Below the pieces are notes generated by a model, which had not been told where the DNA came from, ran no database searches, and was given only the letters and a program-made list of their open reading frames with translations. Positions 13,322 through 63,912 of a stretch of DNA of 64,000 nt are shown piece by piece. The translations under genes were made by a program, and so were the position numbers. The DNA lies in NCBI GenBank assembly GCA_031761405.1, contig JASEVX010000008.1:45109317-45173316 (forward strand), given 5' to 3'. How positions within the stretch are numbered: position 1 is the stretch's first letter; each line of letters opens with the position of its first letter. Source of the stretch: Serripes groenlandicus (lineage: Eukaryota > Mollusca > Bivalvia > Cardiida > Cardiidae).

Positions 13322-14210
13322 TCTGCTAGGTTGGTACAGTTTACAATGTGAAAGTGACAAACGCAAACTAGCTTTCCTTCAACGACTGTGTAAAATGCCT
13401 ACGAACTGTCTCTCCAAGCAGATTTTCACTTATCGTCTGTTGTTTGTTTGTTTGGTTGTTTCAAACAAGTAAAAATACTGGACAAAAAGGTTTTATTCCT
13501 GATACGTTCAATCTATTGCAAAAATATGGTTTAACTGCATATATGAAGTCGAATCTTACTATTGGCGAATTCCCTGCAAAAGTTTCTTGGAAAAGGATAG
13601 TTTCCAGAGTCGTTGAAAGGAAGTTAGAATGCGAGCGTCAGGAAGAATGAACCTTCACCATGACTTCGACCGCTTTGTTTCCGTTCAAAAAAACAGCCTT
13701 CCATCATTATTTTGGTTATGTGAAAAAACGCGCAAAACTATGTATCATGCATCAAGTGCTATACAAATATTAGTAAGTAGCAAACACTTAAGAGAAACTG
13801 TCAGTCAGTGTGTGTACTGCCAAAATATGATCACAGATATCCAGGGACACTTCATATCCGAATGTGCCCATATCTCAATTGAACGGAATTTATTTTTTGA
13901 AAACATCAGTTTCCACTGTACTAATGACATGTTGCTCTTTGTGAGAAGATTTACTACCCAGAAAGAGCAATTTATCAGATATCTTCTTCACACTGATTTG
14001 CCAACAGTATTTAGTCTACCCGAATACAATCGAACCTGTTATGTTCAAATTGTGTATGCGATACATACATAATGTATTGAGAAATAGTTCTGTTTAGCTG
14101 TAAATATACCCAACGGATGGGCTTATGATATACACTTGTATGTATATGCAAATATATATGTATGTGTATGTCTGTGTACTCATGTGTACGTGTGTGTATG
14201 TATGTGTACT

Positions 14211-18835: not shown

Positions 18836-19560
18836 TGTTATCGACAGCAATTAATGACCGAGTGAAATGTTATCAGCAATGACATACAGATTATAGTTAA
18901 AATACAAGGATGCTATCGAGAACAATCAATGACCGTCCACCTCCATTTACCGAGTGCAAAATAAAAACAGGATAATGAAGCTGACAACACTAAGTACTTA
19001 GTGAAGTTAAGCAATACCGATAAGTCATGAAACAGAGTGAATTTTAAACACAAGGATGTAATTGACAGAAATTAATGACCGAGTGAAATGTTATCAACAA
19101 TGACATACAGAGTGAAGTTAAAAAACAAGAATGTTATCGACAACAATATCACTTATCGACAAAATCCATTTTAACAGTGCAAAAGAAAAATACAGGAATA
19201 ATGATGTTGACAATACGTAGTACCTAGTTATTTAAACAAAATAATGTTATTGACAGAAATTAACGACCAAGTGAAATGTTCTCAACAAAGACATACAGAG
19301 TGAAGTTAGAATACATGAATATTATAGACAGCACTATAGGACCGGGTGAAGTTTAAACATAATGATGTTATCGACAACACTCAATGACCGAGTTAAGTTA
19401 AACGGCATGAATGATATTAGCAATGAAATGCCGAGTGAAGTTTAAACTTAAGGATGTTATCAAGAACGTATAAGTACACAGTTAAATGATATATACAGGA
19501 CTGTTATCATCGACAACATCCACGCACCGAGTGAAGTTAGAATTCAGGAATTAACTTATC
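18836..19560. repeat. Degenerate minisatellite spanning the mucin gene's stop codon
   Basis: Diverged units contain GATGTTATCGACAACAATCA, ACCGAGTGAAGTTA and AATACAAGGATG-like segments, about 45-75 bp each. The last unit on the right (about 19520-19560) includes the final codons and stop of the gene, read from the minus strand. Confidence 0.75.
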
Positions 19561-19703
19561 GACAACATGTTCACAAATAGTTGACGTTGAATTATAACAC
19601 GTGTCTTTTGGACACGTGACAACATCCTGGTTAACACAGTCTATGAAGTTACAGGTGTCAAAAGGATGTCGGATGAACGTTGTGGAATTATCGCACAAAG
19701 ATG
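19537..19703 (-). CDS. Last exon: CBM14-like (peritrophin-A type) chitin-binding domain
   Basis: Starts after TCTTTTCAG in phase 1 and ends at TAA. The 55 residues hold six cysteines in the order of type-2 chitin-binding domains: C-x13-C-x4-C-x7-C-x4-C-x7-C, with HPFDTCNFIDC and VVTCPKDTCYN matching the usual '..DtC..y..C....v..CP.gt.yn' core. It is short for the family but complete in cysteines, and the missing aromatic at one core position makes actual chitin binding uncertain. The last dozen codons overlap the minisatellite at 18836-19560. Confidence 0.75.
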
Positions 19704-22700
19704 CTGAAAAGAAACGAAAAGTACGATATAAAGTCACTGAAACATATCAGCATAAATAATTGCACATTCTTATTCAGTTCATCCTATTATCGCTGTTATT
19801 ACGGCATAACGAATACTTCATTGAAATATACAATATGCCGAAAGTCGCTTAACTGAACAACGACAATCATTGAATTAGATCAACACAACGGGACCAAGCA
19901 GCAATGCGTTCAGTAATTCACCAAACAAATAACAGAAACTATACACTGACTTTAATTTAATGAGTGGATTGGGAACTGCCAGCAAGTCCACCAATCAAAT
20001 GACAGCAAATGTAGACCAGCTTTAATTTAGTTAGTAGCAACTGTGAGCAAAACCACCAATCAAATAACAACAACTATAACACTAGATTCAATTTTATTGG
20101 TGGATTGGCAACTGTGAGCAAATCCACCAATCAAATAACAGCAACTTTAAACCAGCTTTTATTTAATTGGTAGATAAGCAACTGTGAGCAAAAACCACCA
20201 ATCAAATAAGAGCAAGTATAACCTAGCTTTAATTATATTGGTTGATTGGCAACTGTAACCTGACAGACACTTACACTGAACACAGGGTTAGTATAGTCTG
20301 TGTAAACTGAACTGTGGCATGATGCATACTTAACAATGTCAGTTAACATAAACTGTATAGAGTTCCCTGAAGAACAAAAACCGGCAACTTTATTCCCACA
20401 GTGCACTTAACAGCAAGAATACGGAGCTCATGCTCTAAAGGCGGTGTGAATTATAAATAGATAATTATACCTTCCCAGTAAAAAAGCGAAATAGTGCGTA
20501 CAATCCCTTAAATCACTCATATACGTGTCGACTTTGATAGCTGCCTTACTTATGTAAACATCCAACAGCATTTTTGTCTTTGTCGTTGCCGTGATGCACT
20601 TGTTAGCGAGGGTTATTTTAAACCGGGCGTTTAGATCTCGATGCCAGCTCACGTCGGCCATGTTGGAGTACCATTGGCCAAGGTAATTCTTTTTATCCCG
20701 GTGCACCCAGGATCATAATAAGGTGTTACATCAACGTGATGTAACTGAAATACTGCTGAAAACGGCTGAACCCTAATTTAACAAACTCTTAAAAAGAAAG
20801 GAATTCAAAAGTCTACCTGGTATAACGTTAATTGTTTCCGTGTTGGAGAAGACGATGCCATCTTGGTTCAAAATGGCCGGCGTGTCCACCACCCCGCATC
20901 GTATTGAAGTGGTATTAACATCTATTGTCTCATTTAAAAAGTCTGTAACAGCATTAAAAATAGGGCACAATTATTAAACATTATCCAAATTTTAATGAAA
21001 TAGTTCGATAACAGGATATTTATTAACCCTTTCCCACATACCACAAATCTGCAGCAGACGACTTTGAACATATTTTGTCAACAAATAGAAAACCTCTATA
21101 ATTGAATGGATAATCTATGACTAAAAGTGGAAGACATTGTGGCAGAAGGAGAAATTGCTCGTTTTGAGCAATTTCTTCTTTTGTAACTATGTTTTCAAAA
21201 AAGCGGAAAGCGTTTTTTCTGCGTTCTTTAGGTTTATAAAGGGAGACAATTATGTTTTTTTTTAGTTTCTTCATTATTTACTTAAAGAGTTGTTTCCCTT
21301 CTGTCAGCATTTTATATGAACAATATAATTTGCTTTTATATCCCCTTTTCCTTAAATTCTCTGATAAACGACCATTACTCTCTACGAATAAATGGCAATC
21401 TATGAAACATACACTTTAGACCACTCTCGATCATTTTAGATCGGAGACAACTTGCGCATCTCCACAGATTGATCCAGCACTGCATTTTACATAAATTAGT
21501 CAACGTATTTTTACACAAATGTCTATTGGAAAATAGAAGAAATGTACAAACATGTCTATATCTACATTTGCCATTAACACACTAACGTTGATTTTCATTT
21601 AGCTGGGCTTGGGTTTACATTACTTTAGATTCGAATTCAATATGTGACAATTTATGAGCCGGCCAATGGGAAAATGTACGCGTTGTCATTTCATAACAGG
21701 GGTGGTTCAGATCATTATGTACACCTGATCCGTCCTAGCAGGATCTTGACAAGTTGATAGAAGTTTCAAACAAGTTTATGAAAGAAATACGTGAACAGTG
21801 TAGATCCAGATCTGACTGAATATTTGATTCTCAATGGTAAGAATAATGTGCACTAAATAAAAAATAAAAATATTAAGTATAATTCAAGCAACCATTCGAA
21901 CATATTTAAAATTCAATCCCATGTCTATTTACGTACATGCTATATAGTGACATAATTAAGGTGCTGGATAGAAGTAAAGGAAACTGTAACATTATAGTTA
22001 CCCCTAAAACTAGCTTGAACGACCTTTCTGCAAGGAGCTGCTACCGTAATATTCTGCATATCGGGGGTGGTCATAAACGTGTTATAGCGAGTTTCCAGTG
22101 GGTATCGAACCTGCATGAACAGCCTGCCGTGTGGATATCCGAGACTAGCCACGCAATATGGATCTACAAGCGCTCCTCCTTCAAACAGATCTTCTGGTAT
22201 CACAACCTGGGCGACAGGGACATCTGAAAACGCAAACAAATGTATAGCTGATTCAATAGTATAGGGACACTCACAAAGCGAAATTAAAAGCCACAACAGC
22301 ACGTTGAGCTATCTTCTGTCACAGAGATTTTACCGTTTCCCACGTATAGACGCATTTTGACTACTCTGCAGCAGGCTATATGTGAAAACAACGTGATACA
22401 GTTATACATTGCTCATGATGACCTATATCTATTTTTGCCACACCGTTTTTAACTATTTTCAGTAATTTAATTTGTTTTCCCATAGTTTTGCCTACGTGTT
22501 TTTAAAGCCGTCTGCTGAATTTTTCAGGTAGGTACGGAAACGTTTAAAACTCAAGTATAAACCTCTGAATTTGTAATGTGTAATGGGTTTTTTATGGAAA
22601 TAATAGTATAAGTTATCCTATAATTTGAAGAGATTTGTGTTTTATGCGTATCCTTACACACCAAAAGCAGTTATATATTATTTGTGGATTTTTTTTTTAA

Positions 22701-25700
22701 ATTTCTGTAGCGAAATTCACTAACATTACGTAAGATTAGCAATCATAATTTATGAGCCCGCCCATGGCAAAAGGTACAAGTGTAGGTTCATTTTATAATG
22801 TGATATGTCAATCAAACTTCAAGTGTATCAGCATAAAGATTATAATGTAAAACGTCTTAACCCTTCAGATATTCAACGTGTCTACAATAGGCAAGGTTGA
22901 AAACATCTTAACAAAAGTAAGGAGGATATCTATTAATAAAAGTACTCTTATTGAACAGGATTGAAAACATTGTGTCATATGGAGTAACTCCTATTTAATT
23001 ATAATTTCTCCATTTGTCACTTTTTTTTCAATAATTGCAATTTTGCACGTGCGTCAAAATGTGTGTGCAATTTTGCAAAGGGTTGAACGCTTACAACAGT
23101 GTGTGTATATACCACGTGACTTTGACGTCACAAATGCTACGGCGGACAGAAATATTTTACTTCGGTTTAGAAGTAAAAACAAAGGTAACTTTTTTATTTC
23201 TTTATCATTTTTAATGAAACAAGGCGCAGACTACGCCGCTTACAGAGCCCTATCTCCGGTTTTTCAGCGGTTTGATTAGTGGTTTAGTTTCTTCAAACAC
23301 TTCGATGAACCTTTTCTCAAAATGTATTGATATCGCCGACATCCGGAGCATTATCAAAACTGGATTTTGAAAACAGGTTCGCCGAAGTGTTTGAAAAAAC
23401 TAGACCACCAATCAAACTCCTGTAAAAACCCGGAGATAGGACATTGTTTCATTAAAAAGGGTGAAGAAATAAAAAAGTTACCATCGTTTTTAGTTTTTAC
23501 ATTCTTATCAAGAGCAATTATTGCTGTCTGACCATGCAAATATGACGTCAAAAGTCACGTGGTATACACACACACTGTACAATATGAGACAACAATGTTA
23601 GATTGAATATGAACTCCAATTTAAGGCAGGAATGAATTTCATCAGCGGGCGTTTGAAAAATATATATTTAAACAAAAACATTAACTAGATTACCGCACTT
23701 ACGTCTTAAAATAGACAATACTACAACAGCTGTTTACCTATTAACCCTTTCCCACATACAGACGTTTTCTGACGAGTCTACAGCAAAACACTTTTGAAAG
23801 CATACTGGAAAAGGGAGAAATTGACCAAAATGACTTTGTCACAGTGTGTTCAACTTTTTCCAGTAATTATAACTACATATAATGACATTTTCCGTTTTGT
23901 TGCAAGAGTATTTCCGAAATAGTCAGCTTAAAATTATTTGTATTAAGAAAAGTGTACGCAGATGATTGTCATCGTGTAGTCACTGCTGGCTTATCAAGCC
24001 TAGGAACTACTTGGCAGTTTTAAACATGTTCCTAATAGGGAAATGAAGATCCTTTATAAGTAATGATCATATTTCAACACAATCTACTTTGAGACAATAC
24101 CGTAACAAACTCACCGAAAATTTCAACAAAATCCCTTCTTTCAGCAATCGCGATATCGGTTGACACCAGTACCCGGATAACATACGTGCCTTCATCTTCG
24201 CAGATCACGGACGGAATTCTGACATAAATATCTGCCCCATCAGCTGTAAATATACTGTCTCTCGAAATGGAAAGGGAACTGAATCCTGGAGCAGGAGTCT
24301 GTAAAAAACAAACAAACAATAAAATAATAATTAATGTCAATTATTATAATTCACTATGTTTTCTTAGCAAAAGTCAATATCAAGAACGTCATTTCTAATT
24401 CACGTCGATTGTGAAACAAATTCTTATATATTAATAAGACACAATAAACATAAAAGGTCTGGCCTTTTTAAATAGACGGACTAATATGTTTCTCACATGG
24501 CAGCTGTACTAGCTTCACACTGCTCTGCATGACCCCTTACTATATTCAATACTTAGTGATATTTAACCATTAAACCCAAGCAGAGAAGCATCGTGCGGAA
24601 GCACAGAAACGTTGACAAACGTCGAACTCACCATCCACGAGTAACAGCCCGCGTCGCTAGCGACTGAGCTACCGGGGCTCGGCACACTAAAAGTGAAAGC
24701 CCTATTGTTTGTTTCCGAAATGACTAGAATAATATATGAGCCGTCCCGCGGGAAAACCAACATTGTGGACTCGCGTAAAGTATCGACCCAGGTCAGCCTA
24801 AGCATGTCGCGCAGGCTAACCCGGACAGACACTTTGTGCCTCCTGTGGATTATCGGTTTCAGGAATCATTACTCTATATACCTCTATTCCCCTGAGACGG
24901 AATGTATCGGCCCGGATTAGCCTGTGCAGTCCATAATGTTGGTTTTCTCGCGAAACGGCTCATATATTGATCTTACCCTTGATTGTTCCGTGACAACCCC
25001 GATAATAACGGGAGCAGACCCGGGCATTTCCTTTTGTATAATAATATACTTCCATCCACGAACGAAGTACAGCTTCCATGCCAATGTGAGTGGGTAGCCG
25101 ATGTACGCTTTCTGAGACAGCTCGAAAATCAGTTCTGGAACTGTAGAATCATAAACATTAATACGATTTTATATCATAAATGACGTCGCCGGGAGTGTAA
25201 TAAAGCCATTGAATAAATTGCGTATTCAACTAGTGTAATAACAATGTTACGTAACGTCATAATGAAAAGCATTGAAAATGACCGCGCTATATAGCGACGT
25301 TATATATATTTTGCGCTAATAATCGTCGAATTGGAATTTATGATATAAATGGAATATAACATTCGTGGTCATTCAATACAAAATCGTATTAAACTCGTTT
25401 TCTAAAATTGCTAAAAACTCGCCAAGGCTCGTTTTTTATCAATTTTAGAACACTCGTTTAATAAAATCTCGTATTGAATGACCACTCATGTAATATCCTC
25501 TATATATTTGTTTGTTTCTTTGTTCCATTAGTGTTTTAAGCTGCTTAAATAAGTATTTCAGTTATATTTGTTGTGTTTTCTTTTTAGACTATCTTGAACT
25601 ACTAATAAGTGTATTCATTGCAATCATGATCGTCGTGGAGGTGAGCCATTATTATCGTCTTAATATGATTTTTATGAAACGACCTTAGATGGAACCCGTG

Positions 25701-55700: not shown

Positions 55701-58700
55701 GGCTACTGACTCTTTAATGGTCACTTTTCTTTCTTGTCAATATAATATTAACAGAAATATCAACTTAAGACATGGCTTGTCTCGTGTTATGTACTTACGT
55801 AATGAAATTTACACGTACTCCTATAAACTGTCTCTGTGTAACGTTGGACTCGTACAGAATTCGCATCTGAAGCAAAACATTGACGTATCAAAACATTTTC
55901 GTATCAAAGCAGTTGTATCGTATCAAAACAGTATCGTACCCATGACCTTCTGCACCGAGACTGACGCTCGTGACTCAAAAGTGTACCATTTTGTGAGGCT
56001 GAAACTCAAACTATTCAAGGACATTCATTTTCTCTTTGTATAGAAAATTGATGGATTGATCAATTACAGTCGTTTGAACTGCAGTCAAACCATCATTTTA
56101 GTCTTAACACGCAAAAAACTGACGCTCTGGCGATTTTGAGAGAGAGATAGTTGCATACTGTACGTATAGACAGACGGCTTATGACCATGTACGTTAATTA
56201 GAAGCTTCCTATATACATCTACGACAGGATTGGAACAAGGATTACCCAGAAAAGACTATGTGGAGCTACAGGCCGATCTCAATCTTTGCTGGTCTCAAAA
56301 CAATGAGTGTCGTTTTTTATGTGGATTGATAGATTTGGGCTCAACGCCGTTTTCAACAATATTTCAGTCATATGACGGTAGCAAGTTCACCTACTTATGT
56401 GTTTCCTAGCTTTCACAAACCAGTAAGCCACACACATATATTCCAAGCAACTGGCTGCTTTTCCACATATACTGTAAGCCCATTGGCGAAAGACGAATGA
56501 CGCGTGTCACAGTGACTTATGTCAAACGTCGGAAAGAATGTTGACCGAGCAGGGATTCGAACTCACAACCCCCGGATTGACAACCACTACCGACTGAGCT
56601 ACCGGGGTTCCGCATGTGGAACTGCCCATTTACCGTTCTAACTCACCTGATTTTCAAACTTTGCTGCTAACTCTTTGAACTCGCGTGATGATCTGTTAGT
56701 CAATGCTTCTGTATAGCTTACTTTAACAATAATCAACTCATTCGTGACTTTTCCTGTCCGATATAAAAAGAAAATAATCATTGAAACAACCAAGTGAACG
56801 AACAGTTAATAACTTGATGTTGGTGATTCGATCAGACTGTGTATTTGTTCCTTCTTTAATATTAAGTCTAACCAGCATGCTGACTCTGTTAATGTAATTA
56901 TTTTGATTATAACTACATGTATTTGATAATACCATTGCACACAGGTTATCTAAATTCGTGACCCATCTACTTCATATTAACGGACGAAAATGGGAAAATT
57001 CTCGCCTAAGCAGTGATTGATTGATTATCTCCATTTTCAGCAATGTTTCAGTTATATCACGGCAGCCAGTTCACCTACTCATGTGTTTTCTGGCTTTCTC
57101 ACACTAGTACTCCACACAACATTCTTTCCTAGCAACCTGCTACGTTTTAACATAGACCATAGCCCATTGGTGGAAGACGAATCACGCTTGTCACAGTGAC
57201 TTTTGTCAAACGTCGGAAAGAATTATGGCCGACCTGTGGTTAGAACTCAAAACCCCTGGACAGACAGCCCGAGTCACTACCGACTGAGCTACCGGGGCTC
57301 GATTCATGCCTAAGCAATACATCTGACAGGTATGTATCAAGCAATATGAAGGGCTATGTAATTGATAGTGTTGTGTTTAACTCCATTTTCTATGATACTA
57401 CAGTTATATCAAGGCGGATAGTTCACCTAACGTGCTTTTCCTGGCTTTCTCGCACTAGGTCCACACAACAATCTTCCCGGATAACTGGCCACCTTAAAAG
57501 AAAGACTTTTTACTCCACTGGAGGAGACGAATGCCGCTTATTTGGAGCATAGAGTTCATTTCTGAGCACAAATTACTTGTGCACAGTTCTCATATGTCTG
57601 TGTCTGTGTTTGATTTCAAAGTAGAGCATAACTCACCTACAACGTTTGATGGGGACGCAGCTGAAGTTGATGTTTGCGTTATTTTCGGAGTTGATTCTGT
57701 CGGTCCCTGAGTAGAAGTATTCAGTGTGGAAACTGACGAAACTCCTGGTCCTGTTCTGCTTTCTTGTATCTTGTTCGTTGTTATCATAACTCTATGTAGT
57801 TCTGGCAGTGATACATTAAGACCATTGCGTTGTACTATTTCACTGTCGGTTATGCCATGGGAGTCAATTCGAAAACGTAACTCGCCTAACATCCCCAGTC
57901 CAACGTCTCTCGTGTCGCGGTCTACAGACAGTAGGATGTCTCGTAATACATTGTGGGGTGGTATCCGCATGTTTTTGACATCGAAAAATAAATCGTAATT
58001 GACGTTGATACTACCGTTACTGTTTGGAAGACATTTTACCGTCGAATTCTTGACTATGTCCATGCTGCATCTGCGAAATGTAGTTAAACCGTGTTGAGTG
58101 ATTTTGGGTATTATTTCCTGTGCGATCAGTGAAGACTCAGGCGAGCATGTGCATTCGCACACTCTCACCAGAACCTTCATTGACTGTCTAGATGTAATAT
58201 AAATTTGCCAGCAACGGCTAAACGTTTTTAATATTGTGCAAGGAAGTTATACCTCACAGGAAATACGACCTCTGGATTTGCTTTCAAACAATGGCAGTAA
58301 CGATTAACTATTTCAATGCCGTATTTCACAAAGTCGAGTTTCCATGTTTTAAATTGGACCACTCCATTTTTCGTCCAACAGGAAATTTGGTAAAATTTAA
58401 TGTCTAAGTGACAAACAATGCATATTGAACTATTTCCATAAATCATTTTAGGGAAATAACAGGAATATGTTATCTGAGTTTTCCTTATGAATTTCATTTT
58501 TAAGTATTTAAGGGAACTCCTATACAGAGGCAAAATCTGTCATAAAAGAAAAATATAAAGATTTTAAAAATACGGCCTGATTACATACGACAAAGTAACA
58601 TTTGACCATGACTCTTAAAAGGTCACTTTCCTTTCTTCTCTATATTATATTGACATGGATGTCAAAGACAAGGCTTGTGTTGTGTTGTGTACTTCGCTCC

Positions 58701-61700
58701 TCATCCGTAGTGGTAGAGCTTTAATGCCTCGGTGCGGGGGGTCGTGGGTTCGATCCCAGGTCGGGCCATAGCAAATACTTTATAAATGGTAGTTGTGGAT
58801 GCCCTCCGTGGCGCTCAGGGTTGCGGGGTTAGCATATACGACTGACTGGCTGGTTTCAGGATAAATGGACTAGTAGTACAGGAAACGCCGTGATATAATT
58901 GAAAATATGATGAAAGCGTCGTTCAATACCAAACAAGAACGGTTGTAACTAAAAACCTATTTTGACCCCTTTGTAAACAATTATTCAACGATTATAAAGA
59001 CTCTATGGCTAGGTGATTAACCTTGGTAAAAAAATACCAATTTTAGTTACAACCGTTTCACGCCAAGCCCTCGATGTGTTGTGTACTTACGTTATGAAGT
59101 TTACACGTGCTCCTGAAAACTGTCCCTGTGTTACATTTGACTCGTACAGAATTCGCATCTGAAGCAAAACAGTATCGTATCAAAACAGTACCGTATCAAA
59201 ACAGTGTCGTATCAAAACAGTGTCGTATCAAAACAGTATCGTATCAAAACAGTGTCGTCGTCTACAAAATTATTGTATGTGGGAGAGGGTTTAATAACAT
59301 TTGCGATCGAGGTAGACTAAGATCGGTCTGAACATACTTGCAGTCTCATCCCAATCCAATGTGTTCGCTACATTTGTATCAATTATTAAAATAGTCAAGT
59401 AAATTGATATGCATTAACCTCTAAGCAATTAATAGTGTGTTGTTTAAAGTTCATTGAATTTAGTAGGCTATAGGTTGAAAAGTATTATCGCATTCTGGAT
59501 GCTATTAAAGTACGACATCGTTGTTGTCATAATGTTTATCAATACTACATAAGGACATGTATATAAGTTAGTTAAGTAAGACTGTTGTTCAGATGTAGCA
59601 TAGGCCTCTCGTTCCAATGGTCCAATGATCGAATCCCGTGATGAGCGGGTTCTGCCTTTAAGATTGTTCAAGCTTTAAGCTAAATATTAACCGTTCTAAA
59701 ATAAACAAGATTAAACTAACGTAAATCGATTACTTTTTTGGGATAAAATTCACTCAGAAAGAACCGCCATAAACTATTATATTATTTCTTAAAAAAAAAA
59801 AGTTAATTATGGTGTCACGTTTGTCGGTGTTCGTTCGACCTTGACCACCTACCGTTCTAACTCACCTGGTTTTCAAACTCTGCTGCTAACTCCTTAAAGT
59901 CGCGTGATGATCTGTTAGTCAATGCTTCTGTATAGCTTACTTTAACAAGTATCAACTCGTTTGTGACTTTTCCTGTCCGATATAAATAGAAAATAATCAT
60001 TGAAACAACCAAGTAAAAGAACAGTTAATAACCCGATGTTGGTGATTCGAAATGCCCAAGATCAGACTGTGTCTCCGTTCCTTCTTTGATCTTAATCTTT
60101 ACCAGCATGCTGACTCTGTGAATGTAATGATGCGGATTATAGCTACAGTCACACCTGTGCTAAAGACCACCTCGGAATGGCGATTCCCTGTCTAAAGCAT
60201 CAACACTTTTAGCTTCCCAATTACTAATTGTCTGCATAAATGACCCTGTAATTAAAGAACACCCATGAACAAGGCCACATTGTTGTGTTCCCATGTGTGG
60301 TCGTTATACAGAAGTTTCACTGTATATGTATTTGATAATACCAACCATTTCACACAGCTAATTCGTGACCCATTTATTTCATATCAGAGGACGAAAATGG
60401 GAACATTCTCGCCTAAGCAATGCATCTGACGGGTATGTTTAGTATTTTGGTTTCAAACGAAAATTGTATCAAGCGATATTAATGGTCATTTGATTGATAG
60501 TTTTGTTTTTAACGCCATTTTCAATGGTAATACAGTTATAACATGGCGGCTAGTTCACCTAACATGCTTATCCTGACTTTCCCGCACTAGTGTTCCACAG
60601 AACAATTTTTCCGAATAACTGGCAATTTTCCCACTTGGGGAAGACGAAGGCCACTCTGAGCAAAAATTAATGTTGTACAGTTTCCACATGTCTGGGACAG
60701 TTTTCCAAAGTGAACAGAAACTCACCTACAATGTTTGTTGGCGACGACGCTGGAATAGAAAAGAAACAATAAGTTCATTTCGTGCAATATCAACTTATAG
60801 CCCTGCGCTACATGCAGACGCAGTGTGAACCATCTGCAGCAGATGACATTTTGCGACATTTTTCCAACTCAGTCCGGTAATATATTTTCATTCATAGAGA
60901 GAGTTTTAAATGATTTTGTCTGGATGTATTCAAAGCGTCTTCAAAAGAATTGTTGTATTTGGCATAAATAAAATAATTGAATCATAAAACGATGCTTTAT
61001 TTTGAACAACCGTGTAGTTCATTATGTGTAACCCATTAGCTACGATAGACGCAGTACTTGCTCTCAGATGTACATGTAAATAAAGAATACATATTCATGC
61101 AGAATAAAATCAGTAGTATTAGTACCAACAAGGTATTGCACACCTTTATGAAGTACCTTAACACTTGTTGTGCCATGCCTGACCTTCAAAATTACTATAA
61201 TACTCCGGGTACCAGACTCATTGCAATCTCTTCTTGACAATCGCCAGTATAATGTCATTAGTGCTTTTTAACGCCGTAAGAAAGGTCCACGTTCGAAACA
61301 GAAATCAATTTTAACTTATTCGGTGCCAATGACACAATTGAGGATTTGCAAACAGTACAGATTCAGCGAGCTATCTCACCGGAACTAAGCATTATTTGCC
61401 TTAGTTATTAAACTATTCTAAAATATATATTAACATGTCGCCCGATTCTGAATATGGAAGAGTCTACTTTAGGGAGAGTTACCGATGTGATGCACAGCTT
61501 ACCTGATGAGGTTGATAGTATAACAGCAAATATTATAGGTATTGTAATCACTGCTGCCAGAATGAGCACAATAATGATACAACAGCATGTACTGCACATT
61601 CCTTTACGTCTATACTCATCTTCGGATTTGTCCGTGACGCTCGTGGACTGTTGAATCGTTGGATAGGGATACGGGTAGCTGGATATCTCACGTTCAGCGG

Positions 61701-63912
61701 CGGCAGGCACTATGTAATCCTGTAACATAAATAGTTAAGTAAATAGCTGTTTGTTTCTAAGTATAGAGCGTGAAAATAATATTTCGCATGTTTTCAAATA
61801 GCGTCCTGCAAATCAGAAAGGGTTACATACAGTCATTGTTGTTTACTGCAGTTGAAATAAGTCATTGTACCATTGTTACATCTATTTACCCCTTTGCGAC
61901 ATACAGACTCATTTAAACGCGCCTTCAACAGATGGCATGTGAAATATATTGTGGCGGAAAGAGAAATTGAAAGAGAAATTGATCACAATGAGTTATTTCT
62001 TCATTTGTAACAATATGTTACCCTCCTTAGAAAAATATGGTGAGTTTTCATAGTTTTATAAACGTTTATGAACCTTTATAAAAACACATATATTTAGCCT
62101 CGAATATTTTGAAACAGGACACCCCGGTTCGACCATCAGTTGCAACGATCATGGTACATGTAGCGTGCCCTTTGTCAAGACAGAGCATAGGACTGGTTTG
62201 TTTACCCAGGGATCATGAATAAATAATACAAGAGTTGCTGCAAGATGCAGCAGTTCGATGTTAGCGCGGGAATCAGCATTTTTATGGCTAAAGAAATACT
62301 AACACGAAACCCGATTTTAAATATATGATATAAATATATGATAACAATAGTTTTTTAGTTAAATACGTAAAACGAAAACAAAAATACCTTTTCCCAACGT
62401 GTTGACCTCGATCTCCCAGAATTATTGTAAACATTTGTCTGCGCATGCGCGTCCTCTTTTGCCCTTAATATATTCTTAAAATCGCAAAATTTAGCACAAT
62501 AACCTCCCATGTTCCTGTTATTAAAACCCCGGTGGTTCCCAGTGATGTAACATAGATTCCGCTCTGGTTGTGTGGCTTCGGGTCGAAGTCAAGAGAAAAG
62601 AGGGAGAAATAGAACGGGAACGGGTATAAATATCACTTCTACAGCCTTGCTTTGGAAGCCGGCTTTTATAGCGACGTTGGTAGAGTGGTTGACCTTTTTG
62701 TAAAGTTACGCAACGTTCATCGCGGTTAGTGCCTGGATGGGTGACCCGCGATGGCTTAACGCCGGTACATTTAATTTACATTTTAATTATATAAAAAAAA
62801 GAACTACGGATATACCCCATCGCTGACAGTTAAATACGGCGCATGCACGATCAAGACGATTAACACGGCACCAGTAACAGTTTTTTCACAACCAATATAT
62901 GCACTGGTGCTGAGGCTGAAAACAATGTTGTAACCGGCGTAAAATACAATTTAAATATATTGTCAAATGGAAAACCTTAGCAATTGTATGTTTATGCCAT
63001 CAATGTGCATTATATATTATATATACTAACTACTATATACTAATAATATGTTTAATGTATGGTATGAAGTAGGATTTGGCCACGACCTTCCCATACCAAT
63101 ACACGTGGCTAATAAAGTGACACTTATTCAAAATGAAAACTTACCGCTGTCATATAATCTGCGTCCCAGTACCTATGTATTTGTCCAGTACCAAACAAAT
63201 AACTGGGGTGCCATCTGGCGCGCATCTGAAACATGCATTTAAATCATTACGTATTCTACATTTGACGCATTTCTTCTTACAGCCGCCCCTGGACGCATTT
63301 ACAGCAAACGTCGATATTAGTATCAGAAACACTTTTTGTTAATAAGATGCGTTTATTTAGAATTGAATGAAACCAAAACAACACCAGACTTAGTGCAACT
63401 TGGTTGGTTAAGCCGTAGAGTAATCTGAATATTATGTTACTACATGTACATCTTTATCACAATCATAATAAAGTATAAACGAAAACCATCCTTAGCAATG
63501 GCATTACAGTTGTAGGTAAAGCTCCGATACACATGGACAAGTTTGTCTATCAGAAATTTCTTAGTCACTTCTAGGAATAATTGACGAACAATGTAATTCC
63601 AAGTTAAACCGCGTGGATTCGTAGGCTGAAATGGACCGGCACAGTCCAATACTTGTTACCATACGATTGGCTGTCCTGGTCTATGTCATTTGGTGTTGTA
63701 TATTTATTTTAAATCAAATCAAATGAGCAGTGTCAATCAAAGCTGATATAATCGAACATAAATACCTTGTTCCAGTTATCAATCCATGTGCGATCTGACA
63801 CGGTGCCTTCCGTTGCACTCTGTACCCAGTCCCGACTCTCTATGTCACCAAGGTCAGAACGCACGTCTAACTCTTTCTCATCCGAATTCGACGGAGCTTT
63901 GATCTTTCCCAT
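19537..63912 (-). CDS. Giant membrane-tethered multi-SEA mucin with Ig-like and chitin-binding C-terminus (30 exons)
   Basis: I assembled 30 coding exons from canonical GT/AG sites with matching phases: 63912-63766, 63225-63145, 61719-61503, 60749-60726, seven A/M/B triplets, then 25140-24977, 24298-24115, 22223-22002, 20942-20817 and 19703-19537. The sum is 12,651 nt (4,216 residues plus stop) with no internal stop. Order: cytoplasmic tail (1-123), transmembrane helix (about 124-144), seven SEA units (157 to about 1700), Thr/Pro mucin (about 1733-2751), Ser/Asn-rich region, six 66-residue repeats (about 3502-3898), two Ig-like domains (3930-4161), CBM14-like domain (4162-4216). SEA domains are known in membrane mucins, where they self-cleave at G|S. 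The role is inferred: a shed or cleaved epithelial surface mucin able to touch chitin. No named orthologue is claimed. The exon joins are predictions without transcript support. Confidence 0.85.
19950..20270. repeat. Minisatellite, about 70-bp unit, in the last intron
   Basis: About five units carry CCACCAATCAAATAACAGCA, ACCAGCTTTAATTTAATTGG and GATTGGCAACTGTGAGCAAA. Confidence 0.85.
20600..20795 (+). mobile_element. Decayed SINE (SINE-3/SINE-2-like body)
   Basis: About 20640-20795 shows GGAGTACCATTGGCCAAGGT and a tail TGATGTAACTGAAATACTGC with GAAAACGGCTGAACCCTAAT. The tRNA head is not clear. It ends about 20 nt from the donor of exon 20817-20942. Confidence 0.5.
20817..20942 (-). CDS. Exon: second Ig-like domain, C-terminal half
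   Basis: Acceptor TGCTGTTACAG, donor CCAG|GTAGAC (weak); phases 1 and 1. The 42 residues include NTTSIRCGVVDTPAI, where the cysteine sits where the F-strand cysteine of an Ig fold would be, and end in the G-strand-like NTETINVIP. Confidence 0.8.
21025..21225. mobile_element. MITE-A copy, right part lost, in intron
   Basis: TTAACCCTTTCCCACATACC, then CTGCAGCAGACGACTTTGAA, then the central stem AGAAATTGCTCGTTTTGAGC; the far terminus is replaced by other sequence. Confidence 0.7.
22002..22223 (-). CDS. Exon: second Ig-like domain, N-terminal half
   Basis: Acceptor TTGCGTTTTCAG, donor AGGG|GTAACT; phases 1 and 1. The 74 residues contain YCVASLGYPHGRLFMQVRYP, typical of the B-to-C strands of an Ig-like domain (C..G.P.G.L), and a second cysteine in VAAPCRKVVQASF. 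Together with exon 20817-20942 the domain is about 116 residues with Cys positions compatible with the canonical disulfide. Confidence 0.82.
22331..22549. mobile_element. MITE-A copy, diverged, in intron
   Basis: Contains TTACCGTTTCCCACGTATAG, GACGCATTTTGACTACTCTG, CAGCAGGC and the right-hand GCCGTCTGCTGAATTTTTCA with GGAAACGTTTAA. Confidence 0.65.
23096..23578. mobile_element. Foldback element with about 225-bp inverted arms, in intron
   Basis: Left end ACAGTGTGTGTATATACCAC and right end GTGGTATACACACACACTGT are inverted. The arms stay similar inward through GTGACTTTGACGTCA/TGACGTCAAAAGTCAC, TAACTTTTTTATTTCTT and CGGTTTGATTAGTGGTTTAG. A short loop near 23325-23360 separates them. The open frames 23043-23279 (plus) and 23354-23551 (minus) are mirror readings of the two arms. 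Confidence 0.88.
23743..23935. mobile_element. MITE-A copy in intron
   Basis: Left terminus TTAACCCTTTCCCACATACA with GACGTTTTCTGACGAGTCTA; the right end is decayed. Confidence 0.7.
24115..24298 (-). CDS. Exon: first Ig-like domain, C-terminal half
   Basis: Acceptor TTTTTTACAG, donor TTTTCG|GTGAGT; phases 0 and 1. The 61 residues include DIYVRIPSVICEDEGTYVIR, a clear E-F strand signature ('l.I..v...D.G.Y') in which the usual F-strand cysteine is replaced by Val/Ile. It continues the domain begun in exon 24977-25140. Confidence 0.83.
24732..24968. mobile_element. MITE-C, about 237 bp, next to an exon donor
   Basis: ATATATGAGCCGTCCCGCGG at the left and CGCGAAACGGCTCATATAT at the right are inverted, and the match continues inward over GGAAAACCAACATTGTGGAC for about 38 bp. 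It ends about 8 nt downstream of the exon 24977-25140 donor. A SINE-2 head fragment (GCCCCGGTAGCTCAGTCGCT, minus strand) lies beside it near 24640-24680. Confidence 0.85.
24977..25140 (-). CDS. Exon: first Ig-like domain, N-terminal half
   Basis: Acceptor GATTCTACAG, donor TCAAGG|GTAAGA; phases 1 and 0. The 55 residues read VPELIFELSQKAYIGYPLTL and WKYIIIQKEMPGSAP. This fits the A'-to-C' strands of an Ig fold with an alanine where the B-strand cysteine normally is, so the first Ig-like domain would lack the canonical disulfide. Confidence 0.82.
25141..26167. other. Intron with an inverted repeat and a dispersed repeat
   Basis: About 25150-25490 holds inverted segments (ATTAATACGATTTTATATCA; AATACAAAATCGTATTAAAC; AATCTCGTATTGAATGACCA), resembling a small foldback. 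About 25970-26120 is a copy of the CGACTCTTCCATGTTGAAAA dispersed repeat. No exon is seen. Confidence 0.5.
26168..26383. mobile_element. MITE-A copy close to the giant exon's donor
   Basis: Left end GATTTCCCACATATGACATA with TGTAGCAGACGACG; right end CGACTGCCTTACATGCGCCA with GGGAAAGGGTTAC. It stops about 20 nt from the donor at 26404. Confidence 0.72.
26405..33546 (-). CDS. Giant exon (7,142 nt): second half of SEA 7, mucin domain, Ser/Asn-rich region, 66-aa repeats
   Basis: One exon of 2,380 codons, phase 2 in (TTTCACAG) and phase 1 out (GGTG|GTAAGT). It opens like the other B exons (CSMDIVKSSTIKCLPN, then GSIIVNYD). It next has a segment shared only with SEA unit 2 (ETNRPDKDKTAHEE to NGTGISIHAN), and then the mucin domain. 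Residues about 2752-3500 are low in cysteine and rich in Ser, Asn, Thr and Gly without a recognised fold. The exon is open for over 7 kb, while long antisense frames exist only because Thr/Gln/Ala/Pro codons read as Val/Gly/Cys/Ser on the other strand. Confidence 0.92.
26501..27689 (-). repeat. Six tandem 66-residue (198-bp) coding repeats
   Basis: Each unit begins SMLGLNINEG and continues through TSIVNNLTFNNNEPLNIRVV, a NTTTFTDGATSER segment and SFNATTN. Most units keep three to four N-glycosylation sequons (NLT, NTT, NAT). The second to fifth units are very similar, the first and last more diverged at the array edges, as expected for unequal exchange. No known fold is recognised. Confidence 0.9.
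29941..32996 (-). repeat. Mucin PTS domain: roughly 100 repeats of TTTTTTQAP
   Basis: About 1,020 residues of 8- to 11-residue units (TTTTTTQAP, TTTTTQAP, TTSTTQAP, TTQATTTQAP). There are occasional Lys, Ser or Asp changes and no cysteine. This composition is typical of densely O-glycosylated, extended mucin rods. DNA units are 24-33 bp and grouped into higher-order blocks, so length polymorphism and assembly error are both likely. Confidence 0.95.
33547..36756 (-). CDS. SEA unit 7, exons A (36756-36650) and M (35638-35571); B is the giant exon
   Basis: Exon A (phase 1 to 0) encodes GKVTNELILVKVIYTEAL and the helix SSREFKELAAKFENQ. Exon M (0 to 2) encodes IRILYESNVTQRHFIGARVN. The giant exon supplies the cleavage-site half (NGSIIV form is TGSIIVNYD here). 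Intron type II. The M acceptor is CTTCAG, preceded by about 310 bp of the 16/19-bp minisatellite. Confidence 0.88.
33666..33734. repeat. Perfect 31-bp stem / 7-nt loop palindrome
   Basis: TAGGAATATTTTGTAAGTAG begins the left arm (33666-33696), and the right arm (33704-33734) is its exact reverse complement; the loop is ATTTCTT. It lies in the intron about 120 nt upstream of the giant exon's acceptor. The homologous intron near 54590-54640 has only the right-arm version, so the left arm is new. Confidence 0.95.
33801..34450. mobile_element. Terminal-inverted-repeat insertion in the last SEA intron
   Basis: ATACGAACTAAAAACAGAAT and ATTTTGTTTTTAGTTCGTAT are inverted, and the match continues over ATGTGTTCTATAAAAA and AATATTTATGGACTT with poly-A/T tracts. 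The interior is unique in this window and non-coding. The matching introns of the other SEA units lack it. A MITE-A half follows at about 34455-34571. Confidence 0.75.
35645..35957. repeat. 16/19-bp minisatellite next to exon M of SEA unit 7
   Basis: About 18 units of TATCAAAACAGTGTCG or the longer TATCAAAACAGTGGTGTCG. On the coding strand each unit gives a T-rich CTGTTTTGATA, and the array starts 8 nt from the AG of the acceptor. Confidence 0.93.
36326..36622 (-). mobile_element. SINE-2 copy (downstream of SEA 7 exon A)
   Basis: Minus-strand head GAGCCCCGGCAGCTTAGTCG with box B GAGTTCGAATCCCAG; body with TTCCGACGTTTGACAAAAGT and GTGACACGCGTCATTCGTCT. Orthologous positions in SEA units 2, 4 and 6 carry the same insertion. 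Confidence 0.85.
37024..37318 (-). mobile_element. SINE-2 copy (upstream of SEA 7 exon A), GCCTAAGCA TSD
   Basis: Head GAGCACCGGTAGCTCAGTCG, tail matching GATTGATTATCGCCATTTTC on the plus strand. GCCTAAGCA flanks it on both sides. Confidence 0.87.
37479..37704 (+). mobile_element. SINE-3 copy with 11-bp TSD, unique to this unit
   Basis: Leu/Ser-type head CCGCTGTGGTCGAGTGGTTA, box B GGGTTCGATCCCC, body GGAGTGCCCTTGGGCAAGGC, tail (CATT)n. AGGTCCACACA is duplicated at 37468-37478 and 37705-37715. The same site is empty in the other SEA units (CTAGGTCCACACAACAATCT), so it inserted after the duplications. Confidence 0.92.
37885..40563 (-). CDS. SEA unit 6 (exons A 40563-40457, M 39562-39495, B 38318-37885)
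   Basis: A: GKVTNELILVNVSYTEAL, helix SSREFKELEAKFENQ. M: MRILYESNVTQRQFIGALVN. B (434 nt): CSMDIVKSSTVKCLPN, cleavage motif NGSINVNYD, helix HKVLRHILMSVDRDARDS, strand LGELRFRIDSHS, then a Thr/Ser/Pro linker ending AASPSNVVG-type STASPSNVV. Intron type II. Autoproteolysis at G|S is expected from the family but untested. Confidence 0.88.
39570..39735. repeat. 16/19-bp minisatellite next to exon M of SEA unit 6
   Basis: About nine diverged units (TATCAAAACAGTGTCG, TATGAAAACAGTCGTGTCG), starting 8 nt inside the intron. Confidence 0.88.
40128..40422 (-). mobile_element. SINE-2 copy downstream of SEA 6 exon A
   Basis: Head GAGCCCCGGAAGCTTAGTCG on the minus strand, same junction as in SEA units 2, 4 and 7. 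Confidence 0.83.
40832..41122 (-). mobile_element. SINE-2 copy upstream of SEA 6 exon A
   Basis: Head GAGCCCCGGTAGCTCAGTCG; flanked by GCCTTAGCA and GCCTAAGCA, the same duplicated target as in the other units. Confidence 0.85.
41445..43776 (-). CDS. SEA unit 5 (exons A 43776-43670, M 42874-42807, B 41866-41445)
   Basis: A: GKVTDELILVKVSNTEAL, helix SSREFKQLAAEFENQ. M: MRILYESNVTKEQFSGARVN. B (422 nt): CSMDSVKNSTVKCLPN, NGSINVNYD, HKVLREILLSVDRDARDS, then RFRIKSHRVIITTKKILE. A 63-nt in-frame deletion removes the 21 residues that follow SH in the other units; SEA unit 3 has the identical deletion. Linker contains ISTSAPTTTNSTPTK. Intron type I. Confidence 0.88.
42533..42790 (+). mobile_element. 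SINE-1 inside the 5' splice site of SEA 5 exon M
   Basis: Head CGCACCTCCTCGGTAGTGGT, box B GGGTTCGATCCTA, tail GTGTTCAACACCAAACAATC. TGTGTTGTGTACTT is duplicated at 42519-42532 and 42791-42804. The duplicated bases are intron positions +3 to +16, so the donor GTAAGT is intact. Confidence 0.92.
42885..42987. repeat. 16-bp minisatellite next to exon M of SEA unit 5
   Basis: Six to seven nearly identical TATCAAAACAGTATCG units; homogeneous compared with the other arrays. Confidence 0.93.
44051..44333 (-). mobile_element. SINE-2 copy upstream of SEA 5 exon A
   Basis: Head GAGCCCCGGTAGCTCAGTCG, flanked by GCCTAAGCA at 44042-44050 and 44334 onward. Confidence 0.87.
44345..44617. repeat. 27-bp minisatellite, about ten units
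   Basis: Units of GCATCTGACAGGTATGTATC plus AAGCAAT. The corresponding site in all other units has a single copy, so the expansion is local. Because 27 is divisible by three, all frames are open or closed together, which gives spurious ORFs on both strands. Confidence 0.95.
44899..49375 (-). CDS. SEA unit 4 (exons A 49375-49269, M 47183-47116, B 45383-44899)
   Basis: A: GKVTNELILVKVSYTEAL, helix SSREFKELAAKFENQ. M: MRILYESNGTQRQFIGARLN. B (485 nt): CSMDIVKNVTVKCLPN, NGSIIVNYD, HKVLRDILLSVDRDVRDI, RFRIESHSITESEIVQQN, linker STSAPTTTTSTPTKITQT ending SNIVG. Intron type II, greatly lengthened by the 1.5-kb minisatellite and a triplicated 254-bp block. Confidence 0.88.
45627..45730. mobile_element. 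MITE-A half copy
   Basis: TTAACCCTTTTCCACATACA, CTGCAGCAAATGACTTTGAA; cut off after AATTGAATGGATAACC and followed by a headless SINE-1 tail (AGGAAACGCCGTGAAATAAT near 45830). Confidence 0.65.
46066..46830. repeat. Three tandem copies of an about 254-bp intron block
   Basis: CAATAGCAGTAAGGATTAAA occurs at 46071, 46325 and 46581. Each block runs to ACTAATAGGCCATCATGTC. The units are almost identical, so the triplication is recent or an assembly duplication. The homologous introns at 34.9-35.2, 38.7-39.0 and 55.0-55.3 kb have one copy. Confidence 0.95.
47190..48705. repeat. 1.5-kb 16/19-bp minisatellite next to exon M of SEA unit 4
   Basis: Roughly 85-90 units of TATCAAAACAGTGTCG and TATCAAAACAGTGGTGTCG with variants (TTTCAAAACA, TATCAACACA). 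A block of about 225 bp beginning near 47322 is repeated near 47547, showing higher-order expansion. It begins 7 nt from the exon M boundary. The long plus-strand frames here are artefacts of the repeat. Confidence 0.95.
48992..49231 (-). mobile_element. SINE-2 copy downstream of SEA 4 exon A, internally deleted
   Basis: Same junction as the copies at 36326, 40128 and 56318, but the box B region (GACCGAGCTGGGATTCGAAC) is missing. Confidence 0.8.
49646..49937 (-). mobile_element. SINE-2 copy upstream of SEA 4 exon A
   Basis: Head GAGCCCCGTTAGCTCAGTCG; target duplication slightly decayed (GCCCAAGCA on the left, ACCTAAGCA on the right). Confidence 0.82.
50261..52542 (-). CDS. SEA unit 3 (exons A 52542-52436, M 51689-51622, B 50682-50261)
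   Basis: A: GKVTNELILVKVSNTEAL, SSREFKQLAAEFENQ. M: MRILYESNVTQGQFSGARVN. B (422 nt): CSMDSVKNSTVNCLPN, NGSITVNYD, HKVLREILLSVDRDARDS, RFRIKSHRVIITTKKILE, with the same 63-nt deletion as SEA unit 5 and an almost identical linker. Intron type I. Its minisatellite is reduced to about one unit (51697-51722). Confidence 0.88.
51349..51605 (+). mobile_element. SINE-1 inside the 5' splice site of SEA 3 exon M
   Basis: Same insertion as at 42533-42790, with TGTGTTGTGTACTT at 51335-51348 and 51606-51619; copied with the cassette. Confidence 0.92.
51760..51970. mobile_element. MITE-A copy, diverged, in SEA 3 intron
   Basis: CTTTATATAGACGAGTTATGACGCCTCTGC, shortened here to its key parts: GACGCCTCTGCAACAGAAGA, GAAAACATGGTGGCAAAAGA, and GTCGTCGTCTACGGAATTAG with GGGCAGGGTTTAA. 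A homologous, more decayed copy sits at about 43015-43190. Confidence 0.6.
52813..53086 (-). mobile_element. SINE-2 copy upstream of SEA 3 exon A
   Basis: Head GAGCACCGGTAGCTCAGTCG; exact GCCTAAGCA at 52804-52812 and 53087-53095. Confidence 0.88.
53410..56753 (-). CDS. SEA unit 2 (exons A 56753-56647, M 55866-55799, B 54164-53410)
   Basis: A: GKVTNELIIVKVSYTEAL, SSREFKELAAKFENQ. M: MRILYESNVTQRQFIGVRVN. B is the long form (755 nt): CSMDTVKNSTVKCLPN, NGSINVNYD, HKVLRDILLSVDRDVRDI. It then has an extra segment, ETNRPDKDKTAHEERSFKP, followed by AAVIITRKIIIKTSQPD and RNGTGILIHAN, which is otherwise found only in SEA unit 7. A Thr-rich linker follows. Intron type II; minisatellite only about three units (55872-55938). 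Confidence 0.88.
54291..54542. mobile_element. MITE-D, 252 bp, 8-bp TSD (hAT-like size)
   Basis: TACCCAGGCTATTCCTAAAC and the complement of TTTAGGAATAGCCTGGGTAC are inverted and extend over ATGATACC...GGCAAATTGGCT. GATGAAAT occurs at 54283-54290 and 54543-54550. Homologous introns read straight through (GTCTACATGAAATATAGCC), so this is a post-duplication insertion. Eight-bp duplications are usual for hAT elements; superfamily is an inference. Confidence 0.88.
56318..56613 (-). mobile_element. SINE-2 copy downstream of SEA 2 exon A
   Basis: Head GAACCCCGGTAGCTCAGTCG, box B GAGTTCGAATCCCTG. Confidence 0.85.
57013..57307 (-). mobile_element. SINE-2 copy upstream of SEA 2 exon A
   Basis: Head GAGCCCCGGTAGCTCAGTCG; GCCTAAGCA on both sides. 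Confidence 0.87.
57637..59972 (-). CDS. SEA unit 1 (exons A 59972-59866, M 59158-59091, B 58070-57637)
   Basis: First SEA after the membrane. A: GKVTNELILVKVSYTEAL, SSRDFKELAAEFENQ. M: MRILYESNVTQGQFSGARVN. B (434 nt): CSMDIVKNSTVKCLPN, NGSINVNYD, HNVLRDILLSVDRDTRDV, RFRIDSHGITDSEIVQRN, linker TQGPTESTPKITQTSTSA. Intron type I but without the 63-nt deletion of units 3 and 5. Minisatellite of about six units at 59167-59258. Confidence 0.88.
58695..58936 (+). mobile_element. SINE-1 in the SEA 1 intron, later split from its TSD by MITE-B
   Basis: Same insertion as at 42533 and 51349. The left TSD TGTGTTGTGTACTT (ending 58694) and the right one (59075-59088) are now separated additionally by MITE-B. 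Confidence 0.88.
58937..59074. mobile_element. MITE-B, internally deleted, 16 nt from a splice donor
   Basis: Right terminus TTTCACGCCAAGCCCTCGA is intact; the left end starts only at ACGGTTGTAACTAAAAACCT. It is absent from the two homologous type I introns. Confidence 0.88.
60146..60322. mobile_element. MITE-E, 177 bp, TA target duplication (Tc1/mariner-like)
   Basis: TACAGT at the left and ACTGTA at the right are inverted and flanked by TA. Homologous sequence in the other units (TATAGCTACATGTATTTGAT) lacks it. Superfamily is inferred from the TA and CAGT ends. Confidence 0.7.
60726..60749 (-). CDS. 24-nt micro-exon (ASSPTNIV) joining the membrane exon to SEA unit 1
   Basis: Acceptor TTTTCTATTCCAG, donor TTGTAG|GTGAGT; phases 1 and 1. 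The peptide matches the end of every B exon (AASPSNVVG), and the downstream intron is homologous to the introns after B exons. It is therefore a relic of a B exon's 3' end. Confidence 0.85.
   Translation of the reverse strand, partial: RRRQQTL
60798..60968. mobile_element. MITE-A copy, decayed
   Basis: GCTACATGCAGACGCAGTGT, CTGCAGCAGATGACATTTTG and right-hand AAAGCGTCTTCAAAAGAATT; termini mutated. Confidence 0.55.
61503..61719 (-). CDS. Exon: cytoplasmic juxtamembrane region and transmembrane helix
   Basis: Acceptor TTATGTTACAG, donor TCATCAG|GTAAGC; phases 0 and 1. Encodes DYIVPAAAEREISSYPYPYP, then DEYRRKGMCSTCCC and the helix IIIVLILAAVITIPIIFAVI. The basic residues lie before the helix and there is no signal peptide, so a type II (N-inside) topology is inferred. 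The Cys cluster at the membrane edge is a possible palmitoylation site, and the tyrosines are possible signalling sites. Confidence 0.88.
61886..62040. mobile_element. MITE-A copy, decayed
   Basis: TTTACCCCTTTGCGACATAC, CAACAGATGGCATGTGAAAT and a central AGAAATTGATCACAATGAGT stem; right terminus lost. Confidence 0.6.
62120..62215 (+). mobile_element. SINE-3 fragment
   Basis: GGTTCGACCATCAGTTGCAA (box B region), TAGCGTGCCCTTTGTCAAGA and TGGTTTGTTTACCCAGGGAT match the SINE-3 body at 37479-37704. Confidence 0.75.
62699..62752 (+). other. 5S rRNA-like internal-promoter fragment (possible 5S-headed SINE)
   Basis: AAGTTACGCAACG, GCGGTTAGTGCCTGGATGGG and TGACCCGCGATGGC follow the order of box A, intermediate element and box C of 5S rRNA. 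Only the 3' half is recognisable, so it is not a 5S gene. A tail near 62925 (AATGTTGTAACCGGCGTAAA) looks SINE-like. Confidence 0.5.
63145..63225 (-). CDS. Exon 2 (81 nt), cytoplasmic, aromatic-rich
   Basis: Acceptor TGCATGTTTCAG and donor GACAGCG|GTAAGT are both strong; phases 0 and 0 fit the neighbours exactly. The 27 residues (MRARWHPSYLFGTGQ and IHRYWDADYMTA) join smoothly to DYIVP. It could be optional, since skipping it also keeps the frame. Confidence 0.72.
63766..63912 (-). CDS. Exon 1: predicted start and acidic cytoplasmic N-terminus
   Basis: ATG at 63912, 49 codons, donor AACAAG|GTATTT, phase 0. Reads MGKIKAPSNSDEKELDVRSD and ends WIDNWNK. It is hydrophilic with no signal peptide, consistent with a type II membrane protein. 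An upstream in-frame TAA (63916-63918) supports this start. MGK could suggest N-myristoylation but the following residues are not a clear match. Confidence 0.72.

Follow-up and report, generated by a model that had tools for sequence, protein, structure and literature searches.

A large gene runs along the minus strand of the window (the whole stretch of 64,000 nucleotides considered here), from an ATG at 63912 to a stop codon that ends at 19537. As rebuilt, it consists of 28-30 exons over about 44,000 bases and would encode a protein of 4,181-4,239 residues, with one transmembrane helix near its N-terminus, then seven SEA domains, a very long Thr-rich rod, a set of repeats, and a tail with a Cys-rich end. 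The gene feature is real, but the domain names that were attached to its far end (Ig-like and chitin-binding) have not yet been earned. The original prediction, made from the letters of the sequence, gave both ends of the gene as they are found here; taken as a whole, what it observed is partly confirmed and what it made of the observation is partly supported. It held, for example, that 30 exons join in phase with no stop. This is so for the first 23, through the end of the giant exon, all of which have GT-AG ends. Farther on, however, the simplest arrangement has 28 exons, and the two that make up the difference are doubtful.

The anchor, the SEA array, and the rod

Exon 1 (63766..63912; this and all other exons below are on the minus strand) contains the start codon, with an in-frame TAA two codons to its 5' side, and encodes 49 hydrophilic residues presumed to be cytoplasmic. 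Its codon score was reached by a fraction of 0.0055 of 2000 null segments, and its donor is weak (0.8). Exon 2 (61503..61719; phase 0 in, 1 out) encodes the rest of the presumed cytoplasmic stretch, including RRK and CSTCCC, and then the single transmembrane helix. Though this exon is taken as coding, 0.17 of null segments score as high in codon use, so the test must be considered a blunt one. There is only one transmembrane window in the protein (residues 98-116, mean hydropathy 3.27), and outside that region none has a value of 1.6 or more. Since this window, ahead of the SEA array, is the only one of its kind and the N-terminus is hydrophilic, the protein is by its sequence of type II, as had been predicted. 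A type I topology with an N-terminal signal sequence does not describe it.

The helix is followed by seven SEA units, each composed of three exons (a, m, and b): unit 1 (57637..59972; exons 59972-59866, 59158-59091, and 58070-57637), unit 2 (53410..56753; exons 56753-56647, 55866-55799, and 54164-53410), unit 3 (50261..52542; exons 52542-52436, 51689-51622, and 50682-50261), unit 4 (44899..49375; exons 49375-49269, 47183-47116, and 45383-44899), unit 5 (41445..43776; exons 43776-43670, 42874-42807, and 41866-41445), unit 6 (37885..40563; exons 40563-40457, 39562-39495, and 38318-37885), and unit 7, whose first two exons (36756-36650 and 35638-35571) occupy 35571..36756 and whose second half lies in the giant exon. 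The middle exon is 68 nt long in all seven units, and when the seven introns were searched for middle exons, it was the first or second candidate in each. A unit of two exons, passing from a to b by way of an upstream AG, was tried and rejected: it is open in units 1-5 but shifts the frame from unit 6 onward. The apparent frameshift in unit 6 is not real, because the 68-nt exon resolves all seven units.

Pfam bears out the predicted number of SEA domains. PF01390 matches every unit at E ≤ 1 (best 7.6e-10), and the three units scored together with their Ser/Thr-rich linkers exceed the cut-off of 26.4 bits (30.8 for unit 1, 37.8 for unit 4, and 36.5 for unit 2); unit 4 by itself scores 39.3 bits. 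DUF7497 weakly matches five of the seven (best E 0.0049), and no SEA chain was matched when the units were compared by sequence with the PDB. The motif GSIxV is kept in all seven units. G-S-x-x-V is the site of self-cleavage in other SEA domains and is known only from those that cleave, and the self-cleavage envisaged in the original prediction is possible, the support for it being this motif. Two Cys residues N-terminal to the GSIxV loop are likewise conserved in each unit (alignment columns 60 and 72). This extra pair could ease the strain that drives cleavage.

Over 387 nt of exon sequence, the units are 91-97% identical. The differences amount to 184, 138, and 284 in the three codon positions, and per site, synonymous differences (0.131) exceed non-synonymous differences (0.059). 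The pN/pS ratio is 0.45 over 129 codons (0.58 when a misaligned end is included), with values of 0.31 for exon a, 0.34 for exon m, and 0.67 for exon b. Going by the sequence, these are the marks of coding DNA under moderate constraint.

The introns of the array (36650-59972) fall into two classes, {1,3,5} and {2,4,6,7}, which gives the order ABABAB-B. In pairs drawn from one class, the alignment covers 56-100% of the first intron at 83-96%. In pairs drawn from both classes, it covers 72-399 nt or is missing altogether, apart from one pair that matches by way of a minisatellite, and the exons are 91-93% identical between the two classes. The pattern suggests that a block of two units was duplicated, with the exons homogenized or the introns replaced. 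All but one of the seven a-to-m introns contain a minisatellite with units of 16, 19, and 35 bp (CAAAACAGTGTCGTAT), in arrays as long as 1.5 kb (47190-48702, with shorter ones at 35645, 39569, 42881, 55873, and 59165), and each array ends within about 7 nt of the acceptor of the middle exon. The m-to-b intron of unit 4 contains a different repeat, a 255-bp unit present in 3.0 copies with 99% matches (46066-46832).

The giant exon (26405..33546; 7,142 nt) encodes the second half of SEA unit 7, the Thr-rich rod, a stretch rich in Asn, Thr, and Ser, and six repeats of 66 aa. The rod, predicted to be a PTS region of about 1,000 residues, turns out to have 1,028 (1699-2726 of the model), 61.8% of them Thr, and is in this respect a PTS mucin region such as vertebrate SEA-type membrane mucins have. 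It is followed by 1,168 residues with no Cys, at the end of which lie the repeats, also as predicted (the first copy has 65 aa and the last 64). Their pN/pS ratio is 0.75, calculated from four copies, one of which is partly out of register by one residue. When the repeats (26703-27692) were modeled by AlphaFold2 from the single sequence, the result consisted only of strands, with a mean pLDDT of 75.5; of the five models, two exceeded 70. Perfect repeats tend to yield models that look confident but are artefacts, and the all-strand model is likely to be one of these. The idea that the repeats adopt a known fold was dropped: Foldseek, run with the model against the PDB, gave no match at E ≤ 0.001, and TM-scores were at most 0.15 in the best 50 of 133 matches.

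The tail

Exons beyond the giant exon were sought by a chain search given nothing but splice consensus and stop codons, begun in phase 1. The search recovered three exons: IgA (24977..25140; phase 1 in, 0 out), the first half of Ig-like region 1; IgB (24115..24298), the second half, which contains DEGTY; and IgC (22002..22223), the first half of Ig-like region 2. Their codon scores were reached by 0.51, 0.012, and 0.103 of null segments, respectively. The second half of region 2 is encoded by exon D (20817..20942), whose codon score was reached by none of 2000 null segments; this exon is absent from the chain obtained with strict thresholds and present in that obtained with relaxed thresholds. 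The last exon, F (19537..19703; codon score reached by 0.15 of null segments), contains the Cys-rich, CBM_14-like end and the stop codon. The phase is kept at every junction from IgA through IgB, IgC, and D to F.

The tail chain scored 46.2, as against a mean of 10.8 and a maximum of 28.7 for 100 dinucleotide shuffles, and was thus better than all 100. The strict chain includes, besides IgA, IgB, and IgC, a 42-nt exon at 23136 and an exon E (discussed below) but not D. Relaxing the splice thresholds brought in several further short exons. Both chains have exon E at their end, and the frame in which they take exon F lacks the CBM_14-like sequence. With relaxed thresholds, a start in phase 0 scored 56.3, in phase 1 57.5, and in phase 2 66.0, and phase therefore gives no ground for joining the tail to the giant exon. 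An exon at 24842-24632, whose end is repetitive sequence with other copies in the window, adds to the score of the phase-2 chain. Chaining of the whole gene without homology was uninformative, as internal exons were limited to 450 nt and the giant exon was thereby forced to be terminal.

Two optional exons may be placed between D and F. The first, D2 (20672..20755), is open and in phase, with a donor of -1.6 and a codon score reached by 0.58 of null segments. The second, E (20275..20366), has a strong acceptor (7.1) but needs a donor of -7.6, and 0.27 of null segments reach its codon score; the donor that the chain search prefers, past 20275, shifts the last exon into another frame. Both are doubtful in view of their donors, so the simplest 3' end is the one in which D is spliced directly to F. 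This is the end we prefer. It keeps the phase, for a total of 28 exons and 4,181 residues, while the other ends give 4,209, 4,211, or 4,239. The 4,216 residues originally predicted were therefore right in size but not in the exact value. An ORF that lies inside the last intron (20431-20712) has a sub-threshold match to Pfam Sec63 (17.7 bits, with a cut-off of 25), which is probably due to chance.

What is the tail made of? The original prediction saw two Ig-like domains and a chitin-binding end. The Ig-like domains were not corroborated: neither region matches a Pfam family at E ≤ 10 (where the filters of HMMER drop most weak matches) or an entry of NCBIfam, a library built for prokaryotes, and no Ig chain was matched in the PDB. 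Matches of region 1 to DHFR (E 0.028) look like chance and were discarded. The label would appear to reflect a pattern seen by eye (DEGTY and paired Cys). The chitin-binding end fared better, and here the label may be called suggestive. With exon F alone, CBM_14 (PF01607) is the only Pfam match, although its 14.7 bits fall below the cut-off of 22.1 (longer pieces give 10.1-12.1 bits), and none of ten shuffles of the exon, five of them with Cys fixed, matches CBM_14. The exon has six Cys, with a spacing partly off the CBM_14 consensus, and it was modeled by itself at a pLDDT of 49.7.

Known proteins, possible function, and rival explanations

According to the original prediction, no described protein combines SEA domains, a mucin rod, Ig-like domains, and chitin binding behind one transmembrane helix. 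As a claim of novelty this is too strong, and it is weakened by Lotgi1|232880, a shell-matrix protein of the limpet Lottia gigantea. An excerpt of its source lists it among the major proteins in the acid-insoluble proteome of the shell and assigns to it several SEA domains as well as, at aa 2140-2200, a peritrophin domain that binds chitin (PMC3374290). The main text of a re-analysis of the limpet shell from 2014, as far as consulted, lacks its number (PMC4094399), and a literature search on the number 232880 gave no shell paper by title among the matches listed. The likeness consists in the several SEA domains (seven here) and the peritrophin or CBM_14-like part (below threshold here); the limpet protein can be compared only by its description, and the excerpt makes no mention of a transmembrane helix, a mucin rod, 66-aa repeats, or an Ig-like part. 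What does seem unusual, from the predicted protein, is the type II orientation together with a series of seven SEA domains that look cleavable. The searched part of the literature yielded no SEA mucin that is of type II and has a chitin-binding end.

Other proteins share one part or another. MUC1 is a vertebrate SEA-type membrane mucin, and such mucins carry the G-S cleavage motif. MUC16 has several tandem SEA domains along with a giant mucin region, as here, but it is of type I and is not known to have a chitin-binding-like end. Enteropeptidase and the TMPRSS proteases are type II and have an SEA domain directly after an N-terminal transmembrane helix, as does the present protein, but they have only one such domain, a protease, and no mucin rod. 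VCBPs are secreted proteins in which a chitin-binding domain comes after Ig-type domains, and they are not known to contain SEA or mucin. The resemblance to them, drawn in the original prediction, is one of order only and has no support in Pfam or the PDB: two V-type Ig domains were not found, in that the Ig-like regions match no profile and no chain, and as regards the C-terminal chitin-binding domain, the match to CBM_14 is sub-threshold. One excerpt places VCBPs in echinoderms (PMC5877582), and another describes a brittle-star skeletal protein with an SEA and a syndecan domain (PMC4336488). Membrane mucins in general are type I, according to the portion consulted of a review, which has the SEA-type membrane mucins emerging in vertebrates, most vertebrate membrane mucins cleaving themselves at SEA, and SEA acting as a mechanosensor (PMC9578598). 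Those that it names (MUC3, MUC12, and MUC17) have in common with the present protein one transmembrane helix, an SEA domain, and a very long PTS exon. They are, however, type I proteins with an N-terminal signal sequence, whereas here the anchor itself is N-terminal, and here seven SEA domains stand between the membrane and the rod and the free end is rich in Cys.

An anchor, seven SEA joints, a stiff glycosylated rod, and a far end that holds matrix lead us to favor, tentatively, one gene for a type II, membrane-anchored, mucin-like tether that joins the cell to chitin and has breakpoints built into it. The N-terminus would lie in the cytoplasm, with the one transmembrane helix anchoring the protein, and tail and giant exon would be on one transcript. 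The rod would be heavily O-glycosylated and stiff, keeping the tail far from the membrane, where it would hold on to the chitin of a shell, a periostracum, a gut lining, or some similar extracellular layer. Self-cleavage would take place at the GSIxV loops, the halves remaining associated, to give up to seven non-covalent joints in series. Under load, one joint would part, the distal piece staying in the matrix and the cell being spared. Such a parting would explain how a membrane protein could come to lie inside shell, the place from which the partly similar limpet protein is listed. In all this, we infer cleavage from the motif, chitin binding from the Cys-rich exon, and a connection to shell from the limpet parallel.

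A bolder form of the proposal, which we put forward as a conjecture more apt to fail than to hold, is that the protein is an inverted mucin of type II, of an origin apart from the vertebrate SEA mucins, whose seven self-cleaved SEA joints form a serial fuse from the membrane to the chitin-gripping end. If so, an epithelium could come away from its matrix untorn, and the distal part would be left built into the matrix. The split structure of the gene and its domains mark the source as an animal, and a mollusc would be a guess. If the animal is an invertebrate, then a type II SEA-array mucin with a chitin-binding-like end would represent an independent solution with reversed polarity. The gene would then offer a concrete candidate for the coupling of an epithelium to a chitinous matrix and its release from it, and it could explain how an SEA protein reaches the limpet shell.

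The tether supposes that the giant exon and the tail belong to one gene, which is probable. The alternative is that the SEA-mucin ends at the in-frame TAA that begins 5 nt into the intron after the giant exon (26397-26399), so that the giant ORF is terminal, and that the tail is a separate Ig-like/CBM_14-like gene, with a first exon as yet unrecognised or with a start before IgB. The membrane mucin would then have no matrix-binding end. The polyadenylation-like motifs AATAAA or ATTAAA at 26264, 25874, and 25462 would suit such an arrangement, as would the failure of phase to discriminate. On the other hand, the giant ORF ends with a good donor, GTAAGT (5.7), a sequence that occurs only 25 times on the minus strand of the window. 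Between the giant exon and IgA there is just one ATG-to-donor ORF of at least 10 codons (12 codons, hydropathy 0.54). The stretch from IgA to IgB has nine ATG-to-donor ORFs. Two of them, possible separate starts, are in phase with IgB and show some hydrophobicity: one begins at an ATG inside IgA (hydropathy 2.02), and the other is the ORF 24763-24632 (hydropathy 1.47, donor 6.0), also reached from an ATG at 24805. A start inside IgA, however, would lose half of Ig-like region 1, and the end of the ORF 24763-24632 is a repeat with other copies in the window (88-92% among the matches listed), while no tail exon has a second copy there. Moreover, an SEA array with a far peritrophin domain is a combination already published, to judge from the excerpt (PMC3374290). 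The single transcript thus rests on a good donor, the want of a convincing separate first exon, and the published parallel, and two genes appear the less likely arrangement. The open stretch at 24632-24842, which has a good donor and ends in a short repeat also present in the introns of the SEA array, might trick gene-finding programs into placing a separate start before IgB.

Or perhaps the gene is one, but its product is an epithelial barrier mucin, rod and SEA domains forming a glycocalyx on cells of gut, gill, or mantle. SEA cleavage would then shed the protein with mucus, and the partners of the tail would be other parts of the mucus or microbes, not chitin made by the animal itself. The composition of the rod and the SEA array would fit, and vertebrate membrane mucins are, in the portion of the review consulted, cleaved at SEA and coat epithelia (PMC9578598). 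However, the CBM_14-like last exon and the parallel with a shell-matrix protein point to chitin (neither conclusively), and we consider a barrier mucin rather improbable. A VCBP-like immune molecule, in which Ig-like domains recognize microbes and a chitin-binding end holds them in mucus, would account for the order, seen by eye, of Ig-like regions and a CBM_14-like C-terminus. It is very unlikely, given the lack of any Pfam family at E ≤ 10 for the Ig-like regions and of any Ig chain among the PDB matches, and a membrane anchor and an SEA array are not known as features of VCBPs. Finally, some SEA units might be assembly duplicates or pseudo-exons, within a gene remnant or a product of assembly, and the near identity of the exons and the ABABAB-B pattern of the introns could be seen in that light. 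This is scarcely credible, since all 21 SEA exons are open and in phase with GT-AG ends, synonymous differences exceed non-synonymous differences, and the two intron classes show separate histories.

Searches and other elements in the window

Exons were assessed by phase, conservation between repeats, codon use, and domain scans. Searches of a protein collection, from which spliced animal proteins may be absent, revealed no relative of residues 1-340 of a 1,697-residue piece (E ≤ 0.001, 4306 candidates), of the tail (E ≤ 1, 1148 candidates), or of the first 324 residues (E ≤ 1, 1462 candidates). No tRNA or Rfam families were found in the window. Outside the gene, on the plus strand, there is an ORF of 151 residues (13617-14069) whose only Pfam match, to a Zn-ribbon, is sub-threshold, and which we take to resemble the C-terminal Cys/His part of a LINE reverse transcriptase.
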